DNA of 29,718 nucleotides from IMG/VR virus record IMGVR_UViG_3300008113_000343, positions 1 through 29,718 of that record, one strand, 5' to 3'. The notes below the pieces were generated by a model. The model was not told where the DNA came from, did no database searches, and worked only from the letters and a program-made list of their open reading frames with translations. Source of the stretch: a virus. Position numbers and translations under genes: made by a program. This document shows, in pieces, positions 6,347 through 29,718 of this stretch; position 1 is the first letter of the stretch, and every line of letters starts with the position of its first letter.

Positions 6347-6555
6347 TGGACGAAATTAAAACACCGTATATCGAGGATGGGCTGCTCCAGTATTTGGAGC
6401 GGCTCTACCCCGACAAAGCTCCAGAGCCTCATCAGAATGATCGAGAGATATGGATGAACCGTGGCGCAGCGGGTGTCGTTAGGCACATCAAGATGCTCCA
6501 CAAAGAACAACGAAATAATATGTTAGGAGATTTTGAAGATGTGCATGGGAAGTGA
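6346..6555 (+). CDS. Conserved hypothetical phage protein, 69 aa
   Basis: The ATG overlaps the reductase stop (TAATG). The protein has a leucine- and tyrosine-rich N-terminus (GLLQYLERLYPDKAPEP) and the segment NDREIWMNRGAAGVVRHIKML. A DREIW...G...VVR pattern recurs in small proteins just upstream of the portal in many T7-like phages, although I know of no proven function. It is soluble and mostly helical in appearance, with no membrane span. Its end overlaps the next gene by 17 bases. It links the nucleotide metabolism block to the virion block on the same transcript. Confidence 0.75.
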   Translation: MDEIKTPYIEDGLLQYLERLYPDKAPEPHQNDREIWMNRGAAGVVRHIKMLHKEQRNNMLGDFEDVHGK

Positions 6556-6760
6556 TCCGCCAGCACCGCCACCGCCTCCGCCGCCTCCGCCCCCGCCTCC
6601 TCCGGTGTTGGAACAGAGTGCTCCGGCTACGTCTGCACCCAAGCAGGCTGAGACGCTGGATCGTCGTGCAGTTGGCACTAAGAAATACCGTACTTCTGGC
6701 CTTGGCATTACAGATACTACCAGCACGTCTGGCGGCTCTGGTCTTGGCATCACAATGTAA
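6539..6760 (+). CDS. T7 gp7.3-like virion/tail assembly protein with polyproline tract
   Basis: A 73-residue protein directly upstream of the portal, in the T7 gene 7.3 position. T7 gp7.3 is a small virion protein needed for adsorption. The N-terminus is MCMGSD followed by two Pro, one Ala and thirteen consecutive Pro (residues 10-22). The C-terminus has KKYRTSGLGI and a second GGSGLGI, matching the Gly/Ser-rich SGLNI-like endings of gp7.3-type proteins. ATG 6539 is chosen over TTG 6533 because AGGAGA at 6525-6530 gives 8-base spacing. The polyproline stretch would slow ribosomes without EF-P. The gp7.3 assignment is from position and the C-terminal motif, so it is moderate. Confidence 0.72.
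   Translation: MCMGSDPPAPPPPPPPPPPPPPVLEQSAPATSAPKQAETLDRRAVGTKKYRTSGLGITDTTSTSGGSGLGITM
6557..6604 (+). repeat. Proline codon (CCN) tract
   Basis: Fifteen Pro codons with one Ala codon between the second and third. Codons are a mix of CCG, CCA, CCT and CCC, so this is not a simple trinucleotide slip but a coding-level repeat. It is extremely C-rich on this strand. Confidence 0.95.
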
Positions 6761-14586: not shown

Positions 14587-17500
14587 ATGGCTCTATTGAT
14601 TAACGACCCCTACGGGGGTGGTCAAGAAGATGTCCGACTGGGTGCTTCAAGGATCACTCCACGAGAGACATATGGTGTTTCCGCTGAGGGCATTCGCTCT
14701 CAATACTCAGATCAAGTTCGCAAGGTTGACTCTCTTGTCTCCTCGCTTGCATCTCTAAACAATTCTCTTGAGAAGTTTGACTCAGAGCAGCAGCGCGTTG
14801 CTGACGCTCAGGCTAAAGCCCAGAAAGACCTAGACGACGTTAAGACTGATAAACAGACTGGCGGCGTGTTTGGCTCACTGTTCGGCTTCTTCACTGGTGA
14901 GCGTGGACCCTCTCCTACCATGCGTATCGCATTGGATCAGGATCGAGGCTCTAAGCTCTACGTTGATACACTCAATGCTGACAAAGAATACCAAGAGCTG
15001 ATCTCTAATCCCGGCGTTATGTCCAATCGTGACGAGTTTGTTGCTCGTTTGAAGGGCATCAACCAACGCCTGATGGGTCAGTTCTTCAAGGATAACCCAC
15101 AGTACTCCGCCAACGTGCGTGGTGGCTGGGCAACTGCTGCTCGTAGTATCGAAGAGAGCCGTGACGCTCAGGCTATGGAAGCGCAGATTAAAGAGATCAT
15201 TGCTGGCCGTATGGAAGCTGCTGAAAAGCGTTCCAACGAGTACAACTCTGGTCCCGGCTACTGGCGCAACCGTTTCCACACGATCTCAAAGGAGATGGGG
15301 ATTGACCCTGCTGAGGTCTCCCAGTTCTTCTCTATTGAGAACCCGAAGTGGGACCCTAACGCTACATCCCCCACAGGTGTTCGTGGTCTGGCTCAGATCA
15401 CCAACGACCGCTACAATTTCATCAAGAGCAACCTTGCTAAAACACGTCCTGACATTGCTGCCAAGATGAAGGATCGTGCTGACCCTGAAAGCTCCTTGTA
15501 TGCTCTTGCTGCTGAATACCCTCGCCTCAAGCAGATGGCGTCTACCATTCTTGGCCGTGAAGCTAAGACTGCTGAGACATACCTGATCTGGAACCTTGGT
15601 GAGGCTGGTGCCGCCCCTATCCTAAACGCGATTAAGAACAACAAGCTTGACGCTAAGGTTGGTGAGATCGCCTTCAACATAGGCGACATCAACAAGAACT
15701 CTGGCCTCTATGGTCAGAATGGTTCTAGGACGGTAGGAGAGACGCTCGACTACATCAACAAGACGATGAAGTCGCGTAGCTCGTATCACCAGCCAAGCAC
15801 GTCTGTTCCCGCTATGAAAGAAGGCGTCATGTTCGATGAGAACAGTGGCATCCCTTCAGGCGCAACGGTCTATGGCTACAAGTGGACCGACTTTAAGAAC
15901 AGTGGTGTTCAGGGTGGCAAAGGCTTTCTCGACTCCCGCATCGTTCAGGTCCTCGATCAGGCATCCCAGTTCATTGGCTACAAAATCATGCCAACGTCTG
16001 GTCACAGAACGTCGGATTATCAGGCCCAGAAAGGTATCAAGTCAGGCCCTCACGGTCCTCACACTACAGGTACTGCTCTCGACATTGCAGTCACAGACCC
16101 TGAAAAGCAGTTGAAGCTTGCTCGCTTCTTTGCCTCTCTCGGTGTCAAAGGTATCGGTGTTTACGGTACCCACATGCACATCGACCTCGTGAACCGAGAA
16201 GCTTCTTGGTCAAAGGATGGTGCAAAGGTATCTGCTGAACAGTTGCAGGCTGCTATCGCTGAAGGCCGTAAGGATATGGCTAGCGGAGGTAACTACCGTG
16301 TGGCTGGTTACAACGGCACTGAGCGTGATCCTTACCAGTCAGAAGTAGCAGAAACTGCTCGACGCACTGGTCTACCTGTTTCACAAGTTAAACAAATCTA
16401 CGCTGAGAACATCATCTCCACAGCCAAAGAGGCCGCTAACAAAGGCCAGTGGTCTACGGGGCAGAACATTCTGAGTGACGCTGTAGCAAACTACGGCACC
16501 AACTTCAGCACTGATCAGCGTAATAAGCTCTATGAAACACAGCGCAATCTGTCTGACCAAGCTCTGCAAGCCTACGAGCGGCAGAAGATTGAGATACAGC
16601 AGGCTGCTGAAAAGGCTTACCGAGATGAGTACGCACGTGCTCAGGATGCTTTCTCTAAGGGCCAGAACTTCTACCCTGACTCCTCCAAGTTCAACCTTGC
16701 TACCCCTGAGGGACAAACTGCTTACGCCAAGGCTAAGGCAGTTTCTCAGTTCGGTACTGCTACTGTTGACAAGGATGTCAGTACTGGCAACCTCGGCATC
16801 TACAAGACGAAGTTCAACGATAAGAACTTCATGTCTGAACTTGGCTTTGGTGAAGGAAAAGAGCCTACGAAGGAACAATTCCGAGAAGCTGCCCTCAAGC
16901 GTTTCCGTGGTGAACTCACGTTAGCAGACCTAAACACTCTTGTTGATGATTATGAGAAGCACCGTGTCGGTACCCCCGTGGCTCGTGCCAAGGCTGAGGA
17001 AATCTCTGCTACTCAGAAGGGTACACTCCAGACGCTCCTGATGACTGATGACAAGTACCTTCAGGCAATGTCGAAGCTATATGCAAACACTGCTGACCCT
17101 CAAACAGGTGCTCAGAAAACAGCTATGCACGTTCAGATGCTTCAGAAGCAGTATGAGAACGTGTTTGCATATTGGTACATGCAGACCATGCAAGAGAATG
17201 GCGGACAGCCTCCATCTGGTCAGCAGCTCCAAGACATCATGCGTATCTCTATGGAGACGATTAGGGGTGATGCAGCCGCAATGTCCCTCATGCTGTACTC
17301 CAACTCGCAGCAGGCAGTTCAGGAAGGCTTTGATCCTACTCGTTGGGCAGAGCGTCAATCATCTGTTACTCAGTTGTTTGATCCTACTGGCATGGCGCAG
17401 AAGTTCATTCCGCCAGATGCTGCTGTTGAACAGCCTCTTCGTGTCCTGCCTCCCGGCTCTCGTGTCATCCTCGACATGGGTGGCAAGCCTGCAATGGTTG

Positions 17501-18114
17501 ACGGTGCTTACCAGTATCGCCTCCCGAACGGCACGGTGGTTCAGTATAACCCCGTCCTTGAGGCACAGGTGTCTGCTCCTAGGAGCGTGACTCCTCCGTC
17601 TACTATCATCGAGACGACTCCCGCTGGTAGAGGTAATGCCCCACAGTCCAACACAGGCTCTAACAGGCCACTCCCTCCTATCCCGAAGCCAGACACTAGC
17701 AATATGACTGGTGCTGAACGGGCTGCTGTCAATCGTGAGTTTAACAACGAGGTGTCAGCACAGGATCAGACTGCTGCACGACAGCGGTTTGACGAGATGA
17801 TTTCCAATCGTATTGAGAAGAGCGTCAACAATCAGTTTGATCGCTCGATCTCCAACTACGTGAAGAATGTTGTCTACGAAGAGTTTAAGTTTGAGTTAGC
17901 AAACGCTCAACCCAAGGATTACAAGAAAATCCAGCAAGAGGTTGATGCTAGGTACGCGCAGCTCTCGGAGTACTTCTCTACCGAGATGCGTCCTATCTAC
18001 GATACGTTTGTGCAGGCCCGTACTGCATTGGACAACGCAACTCCAGCGCAGCGTGAAGCTGCTAAGAAGGCATACCAGAAAGCTCTCGAAGCTTGGCAAG
18101 TCTTTAATCAATAA
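14587..18114 (+). CDS. gp15-position internal virion protein with transglycosylase and M15 peptidase domains
   Basis: A 1175-residue protein, far longer than T7 gp15 (747). Residues about 225-290 form a lytic transglycosylase-like domain: FSIENPKWDPNATSPTGVRG then LAQITN, with Glu251 at the catalytic position. Residues about 445-535 form an M15-type zinc peptidase domain: SGHRTSDYQ, then GPHTTGTALDIAV (His492, Asp499) and GTHMHIDL (His531). The first 100 residues and the region from about 560 onward are helical and Gln/Ala-rich, likely core scaffold and coiled coil; a Pro-rich linker lies near 975-1035. It should act during DNA ejection, cutting peptidoglycan glycan strands and peptide links. 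In T7 the transglycosylase is on gp16, so the location here differs. Start after AGGA at 14579-14582. Confidence 0.9.
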   Translation: MALLINDPYGGGQEDVRLGASRITPRETYGVSAEGIRSQYSDQVRKVDSLVSSLASLNNSLEKFDSEQQRVADAQAKAQKDLDDVKTDKQTGGVFGSLFGFFTGERGPSPTMRIALDQDRGSKLYVDTLNADKEYQELISNPGVMSNRDEFVARLKGINQRLMGQFFKDNPQYSANVRGGWATAARSIEESRDAQAMEAQIKEIIAGRMEAAEKRSNEYNSGPGYWRNRFHTISKEMGIDPAEVSQFFSIENPKWDPNATSPTGVRGLAQITNDRYNFIKSNLAKTRPDIAAKMKDRADPESSLYALAAEYPRLKQMASTILGREAKTAETYLIWNLGEAGAAPILNAIKNNKLDAKVGEIAFNIGDINKNSGLYGQNGSRTVGETLDYINKTMKSRSSYHQPSTSVPAMKEGVMFDENSGIPSGATVYGYKWTDFKNSGVQGGKGFLDSRIVQVLDQASQFIGYKIMPTSGHRTSDYQAQKGIKSGPHGPHTTGTALDIAVTDPEKQLKLARFFASLGVKGIGVYGTHMHIDLVNREASWSKDGAKVSAEQLQAAIAEGRKDMASGGNYRVAGYNGTERDPYQSEVAETARRTGLPVSQVKQIYAENIISTAKEAANKGQWSTGQNILSDAVANYGTNFSTDQRNKLYETQRNLSDQALQAYERQKIEIQQAAEKAYRDEYARAQDAFSKGQNFYPDSSKFNLATPEGQTAYAKAKAVSQFGTATVDKDVSTGNLGIYKTKFNDKNFMSELGFGEGKEPTKEQFREAALKRFRGELTLADLNTLVDDYEKHRVGTPVARAKAEEISATQKGTLQTLLMTDDKYLQAMSKLYANTADPQTGAQKTAMHVQMLQKQYENVFAYWYMQTMQENGGQPPSGQQLQDIMRISMETIRGDAAAMSLMLYSNSQQAVQEGFDPTRWAERQSSVTQLFDPTGMAQKFIPPDAAVEQPLRVLPPGSRVILDMGGKPAMVDGAYQYRLPNGTVVQYNPVLEAQVSAPRSVTPPSTIIETTPAGRGNAPQSNTGSNRPLPPIPKPDTSNMTGAERAAVNREFNNEVSAQDQTAARQRFDEMISNRIEKSVNNQFDRSISNYVKNVVYEEFKFELANAQPKDYKKIQQEVDARYAQLSEYFSTEMRPIYDTFVQARTALDNATPAQREAAKKAYQKALEAWQVFNQ

Positions 18115-22485: not shown

Positions 22486-24342
22486 ATGGCCTTTTATAAC
22501 ACCTTTGTAAACTACAACGGCAACGGCAGTACGACTACGTTCTCCGTCCCGTTCAGCTACTTGGACCAAGATGAGGTCATTGTAACCTTCAGCGGTACAG
22601 GTAGCTATACCTACACATTTACGTCCCCCAACGTCATCACAGTTACCCCTGCGTTGGCGGTGGGGGCATCTGTTCGCATTGAGCGACAGACGAGCCTCAG
22701 CCCAGCTAAAGTGGTGTACTCCAACGGTGCACCTGTGACTGGTGGTCAGCTCAACGCTTCGATCAATCAGCTCCTGTACGGTATGCAGGAAGCTAACGAC
22801 GTTGCTGGCCGTGCTCTCCTCCCTAACGCTGCTGGCAACTGGTTTGCCAACTCGAAGAAGATTGTCAGCCTAGCTGCCCCTACGGATGCTACTGACGCAG
22901 CCACCAAGTCGTATGTGGACGCAGCTCAGGCTGCTGCTCAGGCATATGCTGACACTGTTTCCTCTGTTGCTGGTCCTACTGGCCCTGCTGGTCCAACTGG
23001 CCCTGCGGGTCCTACAGGTCCTGCTGGCCCTGCTGGCCCTATTGGCGCAACTGGCCCACAAGGTCCACAAGGCCCTACGGGCAGCATTGGACCACAAGGC
23101 CCACAAGGCCCCACAGGTCCACAAGGTCCTACAGGTGCAACAGGCGCTACAGGTCCTCAGGGCGTAGCTGGCCCTGCTGGCCCGACTGGACCCGCTGGTC
23201 CTGCTGGTGCTCAGGGTGTGGCTGGTCCGCAAGGCCCATCAGGTGCTGACTTCCAGCCCGACGCTGTTGGTCTCTATGCTAACCGCTCGACCTATGACGC
23301 TTCCGCTGCTGGCTTCTCTTACCTAGCCACAGATCAGGAGCAGCTCTACTTCAAGCTCTCTGCTACCTCTGGCGACTGGTCAAACGGCATTACGTTTGGC
23401 GTTGGTCCACAGGGTCCTGCTGGTCCGCAAGGGCCTACAGGTCCACAGGGCGCACAGGGTCCACAAGGCCCACAGGGTGATCCCGGTCCTACAGGTGCTA
23501 CAGGTCCTACAGGTCCTGCTGGTCCTACGGGCGCACAAGGTCCACAAGGCATTCAAGGCCCTGCTGGTGCTAACGGTGCTAAGGGCAACACGTGGCGTGG
23601 TACTTACTCTGGCGCAACGACTTACGTTGTTGACGATGTTGTCTACTCTGGCGCTTCAGCGTGGATTTGTATCCTCAACACCACTGGTAACGCACCGCCT
23701 ACACTTCCTACAACGTCGAACACCTATTGGAACCTGATGGTCCAAGGTATCGGCAATACGGCTGCTGACATGTCGTTCAGCCCTACTGGCAACCTTGCGT
23801 CTACCAATGTCCAAGCCGCTATTGCAGAGCTAGACACTGAGAAGGCTGATGCTGCTGCCACTACGTCAGCACTTGCTGGCAAGGCTAACACCTCGCACAC
23901 ACACGCCATCTCTGATGTGACCAACCTCCAGACATCGTTGGATGCAAAGGCTCCTACAGCCTCTCCGACGTTCACTGGTACGGCTACTGCTGCTGACCTT
24001 GCAGTGACAGGTAAGGCGTCTCAAGAGATTGACGCCATTGGTAACACCTCTGGAACCATCACGCTGAACTTTGCGAACGGTAACAACTTCTCGCTGACGC
24101 TCAATGCGAACAGCACGAACACACTGGCTAATCCCAGCAACCTAACCGCTGGTCAGTCAGGTATCATCTTCATCTCGCAGGACGCCACAGGTAGTCGAAC
24201 CTTGGCGTATGGAACATCTTGGGACTTCCCCGGTGGAACTGCGCCTACTCTAACCACGACAGCTAACGCCGTGGACGCCATCGTCTACACGGTGAGGTCT
24301 GCGACGAGTATAGCTGCACAGTTCATTGGAGATATTAAGTGA
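22486..24342 (+). CDS. Tail fibre with T7 gp17-like N-terminus and collagen-like repeats
   Basis: A 618-residue adhesion protein. Residues 1-150 match the T7 gp17 tail-attachment domain: [31 protein letters not shown], and [19 protein letters not shown]. Residues 163-253 and 307-367 are collagen-like Gly-X-Y blocks rich in GPT, GPA and GPQ, which should form trimeric stalks. Between them is a short globular segment, and after them [20 protein letters not shown] resembles a chitin-binding (CBM5/12-like) module. The C-terminal half has coiled-coil-like [20 protein letters not shown] and a beta-rich tip ([19 protein letters not shown]). The stop overlaps the GTG of the next fibre gene (GTGA), so both are made together. 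Confidence 0.92.
22972..23247 (+). repeat. Collagen-like repeat block 1
   Basis: About 30 Gly-X-Y triplets (residues 163-254 of the fibre), mainly GPT, GPA, GPQ and GAT. The DNA is a degenerate 9-base periodic repeat of GGTCCTACT/GGCCCTGCT type, prone to slippage or recombination. Confidence 0.95.
23404..23586 (+). repeat. Collagen-like repeat block 2
   Basis: Twenty Gly-X-Y triplets (residues 307-367 of the fibre), richer in GPQ and GAQ than block 1, and separated from it by a 52-residue globular segment. High similarity to block 1 at DNA level could allow expansion or contraction of the stalk. Confidence 0.95.
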
Positions 24343-27622: not shown

Positions 27623-28006
27623 ATGCCCTTTGCACTCTCTCAGCGGTCACGTGATCGCATGAAGGGGGTCCATCCTGATCTTGTTAAGGTCATTGAACTC
27701 GCAATCACTAAGACTGAAGTAGACTTTGTAGTCACTGAAGGTCTCCGCTCCCCTGAGCGTCAGATGCAGCTCTATCTAGCTGGTGCATCAAAGACGACCA
27801 AAGGGCGACACATCACTGGTCACGCTGTTGACGTTGCTGCCCTATTGGACGGCAAGGTCCGCTGGGATTGGCCTTTGTATCACAAGATCGCTGCTGCTGT
27901 GAAAGCTGCTGCTGCTGAGCTTGGTGTCCCCATCGTGTGGGGTGGTGATTGGAAGAGTTTCCCTGATGGTCCCCATTACGAACTCGACCGTAAACATTAC
28001 CCATAA
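27623..28006 (+). CDS. Endolysin, M15-family peptidoglycan peptidase
   Basis: A 127-residue zinc peptidase predicted to cut peptidoglycan peptide links and release progeny. The VanY/M15 pattern is complete: VTEGLRSPERQMQLYLAGAS, then GRHITGHAVDVAAL (His63 and Asp70) and WGGDWKSFPDGPHYEL (His118 as third ligand). It is a bare catalytic domain with no signal peptide or cell wall binding domain, as in many Gram-negative phage endolysins, so it needs the neighbouring holin to reach the wall. AGGA at 27612-27615 precedes the ATG. It differs clearly from the M15-like domain in the gp15-position virion protein. Confidence 0.95.
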   Translation: MPFALSQRSRDRMKGVHPDLVKVIELAITKTEVDFVVTEGLRSPERQMQLYLAGASKTTKGRHITGHAVDVAALLDGKVRWDWPLYHKIAAAVKAAAAELGVPIVWGGDWKSFPDGPHYELDRKHYP

Positions 28007-28015
28007 GGAATTACC

Positions 28016-28417
28016 ATGCTTGCCGCTCTAATCCCTGTTATTGGTCCGATCATCGACAAGCTGGTGGACCGTATTCCTGACCCTGCTGCTCGTGAGCGAG
28101 CTAGGCTTGAGGCTGAAGCTACGCTTCTCAGTGCCTCCATTGAAGAAATGAAGGGTCAGGTCTCTATTAACGTCGAAGAAGCTAAGCACCAGAACATCTT
28201 TGTGTCTGGTTGGCGTCCAGCTATTGGCTGGTCGTGTGCTTTTGCCTTCGCATTTCTCTACGTGATCGCACCTGTAGTGCAGTGGATCGCCCAGATGTAT
28301 GGCGTTGTGATCCTGCTGCCCAAGTTCGACTCTGATGCACTCATGTCTCTGACGTTCGGTATGCTTGGCATTGCTGGGTTCCGTACATTTGAGAAGGTCA
28401 AGGGGGTAACCAAGTGA
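28016..28417 (+). CDS. Three-span holin (GTA_holin_3TM-like)
   Basis: A 133-residue membrane protein next to the endolysin. The N-terminus MLAALIPVIGPIIDKLVDRI is hydrophobic/amphipathic and is followed by a charged helix with ARERARLEAEATLLSASIEE. Then come NIFVSGWRPAIGWSCAFAFA and FLYVIAPVVQWIAQM as membrane spans, and LMSLTFGMLGIAGFRTFEKV as the last span ending in a basic tail. The SGWRPAIGW and LGIAGFRTFEK(I/V)KGV parts match the holin family described for gene transfer agents and proteobacterial phages. It would form the lesion through which the endolysin exits. Start after AAGGA at 28006-28010; stop overlaps the next GTG. Confidence 0.88.
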   Translation: MLAALIPVIGPIIDKLVDRIPDPAARERARLEAEATLLSASIEEMKGQVSINVEEAKHQNIFVSGWRPAIGWSCAFAFAFLYVIAPVVQWIAQMYGVVILLPKFDSDALMSLTFGMLGIAGFRTFEKVKGVTK

Positions 28418-28635
28418 CGGATGCCCCTGAAGTGAAAATCGCAGTGTTGAATGCAGAGCTAGAACACATGCGGAGGGACATGGATGAGGTCAAAGCTGAC
28501 CTTAAAGTCATCCGTGAGACCCTTCAACAGGCCAAAGGTGGGTGGAAAACACTCATGCTAGTGGCTGGTATCTCATCCACGGTAGGCGCTTTCATCGCAA
28601 AGATAGCCCCGTGGCTAGGAGTAATGCCTAAATGA
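28414..28635 (+). CDS. Small coiled-coil plus membrane-span protein
   Basis: A 73-residue protein starting at GTG 28414 within a GTGA overlap with the holin stop. Residues 5-42 are a charged coiled coil (VLNAELEHMRRDMDEVKADL then KVIRETLQQAKGG), and residues 45-65 are a single span (TLMLVAGISSTVGAFIAKI). This layout is like XhlA-type or other holin-accessory proteins, but the order is coil first, span last, unlike an Rz spanin. Its place between holin and small terminase supports a lysis role. No signal peptide or lipobox was seen. Confidence 0.75.
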   Translation: MTDAPEVKIAVLNAELEHMRRDMDEVKADLKVIRETLQQAKGGWKTLMLVAGISSTVGAFIAKIAPWLGVMPK

Positions 28636-28859
28636 AGAAACGAGCTACCGATGAGGTGCTTGGTGAGCTTCACAAGATGGTCGCAGAGGAGCTAACCCGT
28701 CGCATTGCTACTGGTGAAGCCTCCCCTGCGGACATCAATGCAGCCATTAAGTTCCTTCAGAACAACGGTATTGAGGCAGTTGCCACCGAAGAGAACCCTA
28801 TTGGGAAGCTCGTGGCTGCACTGCCTACATTTGATGACGAAGAAGACCACATCCATTGA
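28632..28859 (+). CDS. Small terminase subunit, T7 gp18-like
   Basis: A 75-residue protein directly upstream of the large terminase, like T7 gp18 (89 residues). It recognises concatemeric phage DNA and stimulates the packaging motor. Typical features are the helical LGELHKMVAEELTRRIATGE, then SPADINAAIKFLQNNGIEAV and an acidic C-terminus (PTFDDEEDHIH) that can contact the large subunit. The ATG overlaps the previous stop (ATGA at 28632-28635), and its own TGA overlaps the TTG of the large terminase. Confidence 0.9.
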   Translation: MKKRATDEVLGELHKMVAEELTRRIATGEASPADINAAIKFLQNNGIEAVATEENPIGKLVAALPTFDDEEDHIH

Positions 28860-29137
28860 CCAAAGACCCTCTCAAGGAGGACTTTAGGAAGTTTCTCTAT
28901 GTTGTCTGGAAGCATATTGGTCTGCCTGACCCTACCCCTATACAGTATGACATTGCCTACTTCCTCCAACACGGCCCCTCCAAGATTGCCATCGAGGCGT
29001 TTCGAGGTGTCGGCAAGTCCTTCATCACCTCCGCCTACGTCCTATGGCGTCTCTATTGCAATCCTCTGTTGGTATCACTGGTCAGCTCACTGGTTCTCGT
29101 GCTGACGAGATCATCGCAGATGACGTGGAAGTGTTAA
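28856..29137 (+). CDS. Large terminase N-terminal ATPase fragment (gene broken near 29065)
   Basis: The N-terminus of the T7 gp19-like packaging ATPase, from TTG 28856 overlapping the small terminase stop. DFRKFLYVVWKHIGLPDPTP and the Walker A region AFRGVGKSFITSAYVLWRLY align well with T7 gp19 up to the residues CNP (29057-29065). After that the frame encodes LLVSLVSSLVLVL and other residues with no family resemblance and stops at 29137. The homologous sequence resumes in another frame (see the next entry). No in-frame ATG is available before the conserved region, so TTG is the most likely start. The true product would be truncated before Walker B and inactive. Confidence 0.85.
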   Translation: MTKDPLKEDFRKFLYVVWKHIGLPDPTPIQYDIAYFLQHGPSKIAIEAFRGVGKSFITSAYVLWRLYCNPLLVSLVSSLVLVLTRSSQMTWKC

Positions 29138-29718
29138 ACAATGCTGCCACTGCTGACATGCGTGAGAAGCTGATCGAGCGTACCAAGGAGTTCTCGGCTA
29201 TCTTGAAGCCGCTGGACCACGCTAGGATCATCTATCTGGGCACTCCCCAGACTGAAGACTCGATCTACAACAAACTACCAGAGACGTTTGTCACCCGCAT
29301 CTGGCCTGCTCTTGTTCCTACTAAGGAAGAAAGCGAGAAATACGGTGACAACCTAGCCCCCTTCATCAGGAAGATGCTAGGAACCAAGCCTGAAGGGACT
29401 ACTACAGACCCCCACAGGTTCTCTGACATTGATCTGGCCTCCCGACAGGCTGAGTATGGTCGAGCAGGGTTCGCCTTGCAGTTCATGCTCAACACCTCGC
29501 TCTCAGATGAGGACAGGTACCCGCTCAAGATACGCGATTTGATCATCATGGACGTGCCTAAGGATAAGGCTCCTATGAAGATCAACTGGCTACCTGACTA
29601 TAAACGTGAGCTGAAGGAGCTGCCTAACCTAGCAATGGCTGGGGACAGGTTCTACGCCCCGGCATCTACTGATGACACGTTCGCAGAGTACACAGGGACC
29701 GTCATGTCCATTGACCCT
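29044..29718 (+). CDS. Large terminase remainder, different frame, 3' end cut by window
   Basis: Open frame continuing to the right edge. Homology to T7 gp19 starts at 29065 with SVGITGQLTGSRADEIIADD (Walker B region IIADD), then ARIIYLGTPQTEDSIYNKL (motif III) and EYGRAGFALQFMLNTSLSDE. The last residues, VMSIDP, are the start of the nuclease domain. An in-frame ATG at 29044 exists but has no ribosome binding site. Relative to T7, about 61 residues between Walker A and this point are missing and the reading frame shifts, so this is one gene with an internal deletion, real or from assembly. The coordinates give the open frame, not a proven start. Confidence 0.82.
   Translation, partial: MASLLQSSVGITGQLTGSRADEIIADDVEVLNNAATADMREKLIERTKEFSAILKPLDHARIIYLGTPQTEDSIYNKLPETFVTRIWPALVPTKEESEKYGDNLAPFIRKMLGTKPEGTTTDPHRFSDIDLASRQAEYGRAGFALQFMLNTSLSDEDRYPLKIRDLIIMDVPKDKAPMKINWLPDYKRELKELPNLAMAGDRFYAPASTDDTFAEYTGTVMSIDP

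Follow-up and report, generated by a model that had tools for sequence, protein, structure and literature searches.

Large terminases of T7-like phages

In T7-like phages, the ATPase of the large terminase subunit (TerL) is essential for DNA packaging. The best known counterpart of the gene described here is T7 gp19 (DNA maturase B, the Autographiviridae large terminase), which is homologous to it on both sides of the break reported below. The original prediction had already named this likeness; alignment now gives 48% identity between T7 gp19 and the TerL of a near-identical sister contig, IMGVR_UViG_3300008262_001993 (L002), which served us as reference for the break. The solved terminases 8dgc and 4bij match L002 TerL along most of its length, and the TerL proteins of Roseobacter phage CRP-804, Rhizobium phage RHEph01 and Limnohabitans phage YIMV22061 are 54–62% identical to it. 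These last three are full-length and encoded in a single frame, unlike the copy studied here. With respect to T7 gp19, 8dgc and 4bij, our copy lacks residues 70–131, changes frame at that point and is cut off upstream of the nuclease domain, where the contig ends.

The DNA analyzed (the window) is the complete IMG/VR virus record IMGVR_UViG_3300008113_000343, with a length of 29,718 bases, and represents the later portion of a T7-like (Autographiviridae-type) phage genome. It includes genes for DNA polymerase, thymidylate synthase, an exonuclease, a MazG-like protein and ribonucleotide reductase, together with those for head-tail adaptor, scaffold, capsid, tail and internal virion proteins and a collagen-like tail fibre. 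At its 3′ end, endolysin (27623), holin (28016), the terminase small subunit TerS (28632) and TerL (28856), the latter truncated by the contig end, follow each other in T7-type order, TerL being located immediately downstream of the lysis genes and TerS. Judged by homology and gene neighborhood, the gene is a T7-type TerL broken by a private lesion. It represents neither a new kind of gene nor a new family, mechanism or layout.

The two parts of the TerL gene

All features of the terminase region lie on the plus strand. The TerS gene (28632..28859, 75 aa; PHROG 891, E 2.7e-19) is intact and overlaps the TerL start by 4 bases. The 5′ part of the TerL gene (28856..29064) encodes residues 1–69 and part of codon 70, includes the Walker A motif GVGKS and matches PHROG 38 and 17672. 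The corresponding reading frame extends from TTG 28856 to a stop at 29137 (93 aa): it corresponds to TerL up to RLYCNP, reading GVGKSFITSAYVLWRLYCNP before the frame is lost, and ends with an out-of-frame tail (29065..29137). The gene continues in another frame (29065..29718; PHROG 17672, E 4.9e-49), from SVGITGQL through the Walker B motif IIADDVE until it is cut by the contig end. This right frame is open from upstream of the junction (ATG 29044), and TerL sequence begins in it at SVGITGQLTGSRADEIIADDVE.

Both pieces are homologous to TerL in the ATPase domain (phrog_38, phrog_17672 and phage tblastn matches). On the phrog_17672 profile, the left piece stops at position 100 and the right piece picks up at position 160, which agrees with the earlier assignment of the left frame to TerL up to CNP and of the right frame from SVGITGQL. 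Walker A and Walker B are both present, but in different frames and with 184 bases missing between them, and the ATPase domain is not continuous in a single frame. At 29718 the window copy ends upstream of the C-terminal RNase H-like nuclease domain.

Comparison with a near-identical contig

L002 aligns with the window at 99.6% identity over 27882–29064 and at 99.4% over 29065–29718, and the sole gap in the alignment consists of 184 extra L002 bases (L002 1184–1367). This alignment places the break exactly at 29064|29065. As 184 bases correspond to 61 codons plus one base, the frame changes at the junction; the loss of about 61 residues and the frame change at about 29065 that had been proposed from the window alone are therefore correct. 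The missing part does not lie elsewhere in the window, as also proposed: the 184 bases share no 14-mer with it on either strand. The intact TerL of L002 comprises 566 aa, with the nuclease domain PF22530 present (E 3.1e-41), and L002 runs on to the end of the gene inside which the window contig stops.

The loss affects TerL residues 70–131 (L002 numbering), from PQLKFLVVSASK to FDVGPATADQSPSVK, between Walker A and Walker B. It includes the strongly conserved blocks QLKFLVVSASK and FDVGPA...SPSVK, which are kept in T7 gp19 and in the other aligned relatives. Alignment and what is known of ASCE ATPases suggest that the remaining TerL pieces, even if joined in frame, would be unable to form a packaging ATPase.

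In the aligned stretch from 28200 on, the window differs from L002 at nine bases, four of which fall in the 3′ half of TerL. All nine differences are silent (eight at third codon positions and one synonymous first-position change in an arginine codon). Until very recently, selection must therefore have preserved an intact TerL in both lineages, and the lesion, if real, is very recent. A pattern of exclusively silent differences is expected of an artefact or of a brand-new deletion.

Survey of relatives

We tested 83 loci for the presence of both TerL sides. Both were found in 81, including L002 and three cultured phages, and in every one of these 81 the two pieces are separated by 186 nt in one open frame; the bases absent from the window are present in each of them. 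The other two loci, L032 and L072, contain the right part of TerL only, with matches beginning at locus bases 2 and 59, respectively. Of 80 viral loci fetched, 79 have their match to the right-hand piece beginning at the same residue, 8; in the exception, L032, it begins at the locus's own contig end. According to the original prediction, relatives sharing the short, split layout would, together with uniform read support, mark it as natural; none of the spanning loci shares it (0/81). The exact 31-base junction is present in no other viral contig searched, although the search may not have covered the records closest to the window. One locus, L084, gave a single 17-mer junction match and was rejected as the same junction, its sequence being unrelated. 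Literature searches returned nothing specific to this truncated terminase case.

These data bear on two explanations in which the short gene is not damaged. A functional split terminase might consist of two proteins (the 93-aa frame and the ORF from ATG 29044) or be produced by a −1 frameshift within the 29044–29137 overlap, and the overlap of the frames and the ATG at 29044 would fit such an arrangement. The joined product would, however, still lack residues 70–131 with their conserved blocks, none of the spanning relatives has this layout, and a ribosome-binding site upstream of 29044 is not evident on inspection; we consider the explanation very improbable. That the short form is the original one, from which an intron-like or mobile element has been removed, is refuted by the spanning loci: the clean edges are all that speaks for it, and what is missing is not an insert but conserved coding sequence of TerL, of equal length in all 81 loci and aligned in T7 gp19.

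In some relatives, additional DNA separates the TerS and TerL genes. In L003 it amounts to about 380 bases (2236–2615), between matches to window positions 28859 and 28864, and in L012, L016 and L017 to roughly 1 kb.

Origin of the 184-base loss

The original prediction had offered an assembly or sequencing artefact, a subpopulation deletion and a defective genome as explanations. The analysis supports these as the set of options, and most likely the loss is an assembly or library artefact near the contig tip (estimated probability about 0.72). The phage itself would then carry an intact TerL gene like that of L002, an ordinary T7-type gene from which 184 bases would have been dropped in this one contig only, when the library was prepared or the reads were assembled, in a stretch of weak support near the broken contig end. 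An artefact is favored by the complete gene in the 99.5%-identical contig L002, by the invariant spacing and single open frame in all spanning loci, and by the junction being seen in no other contig searched. The nine differences from L002, all silent, give no sign that selection was relaxed once the lesion had arisen. The contig ends 654 bases past the junction, inside TerL, which continues in L002. As the TerL ATPase is essential, the main form in the population would not be expected to carry a loss that breaks its frame.

A second comparable break, which would have pointed to poor assembly in general, was not noticed in the stretches of the window that can be aligned with relatives, which likewise favors a local artefact; coding-region indels versus relatives are there mostly compensating pairs. 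The deletion edges share no base, so that microhomology is absent at the junction, and no repeat spans it within the window. Repeat-mediated deletion and repeat collapse were rejected on these grounds. For the artefact this means that repeat collapse in its simple form does not account for the loss; as the junction holds no repeat to mislead a k-mer assembler, one would have to assume a chimeric fragment or a wrongly closed gap. Real deletions can also occur without microhomology.

A real and very recent deletion of 184 bases, in a defective or subpopulation variant packaged only through complementation by the intact TerL of a co-infecting phage, is possible but unlikely. The clean flanks, the exact join and the unaltered remainder of the gene are consistent with it, and the intact relative has a hairpin-rich stretch spanning this region (z −2.9), which might promote polymerase skipping. 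Such a deletion would, however, abolish an essential gene, the variant that a contig represents is usually the most abundant one, and no other contig searched has the junction. The hairpin score is moderate, and a hairpin-driven deletion was rejected because several of 40 control stretches from the same window score about as low. The predicted stem leaves the two break points apart. It appears improbable that a natural TerL-deficient variant is so frequent in its habitat that it was assembled, with intact siblings complementing it and so sustaining it as a "cheater" or defective-interfering T7-type phage.

The result is mainly a warning about data quality. A short or split TerL should not be entered as the annotation of this contig's terminase, which is also unsuitable for TerL trees and for structural modelling. 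A deletion that was both real and frequent would provide a case of natural defective T7-like phages dependent on helpers.

Other features of the window

The TerL start codon TTG 28856, within the overlap with the TerS stop, is also TTG at the aligned position in L002 and L004–L006, and is ATG in L012 and L016. A CCGCC-rich short tandem repeat (6556–6604) is located between a small ORF, which ends at 6555, and the gene for the head-tail adaptor. A stretch (17439–17957) in the 3′ part of the large ORF 14587–18114 does not align with G003 at the DNA level, while both flanks align at 75–78%. The collagen-like repeat of the tail fibre gene (22968–23528) is built of tandem 9/18/27-base units.
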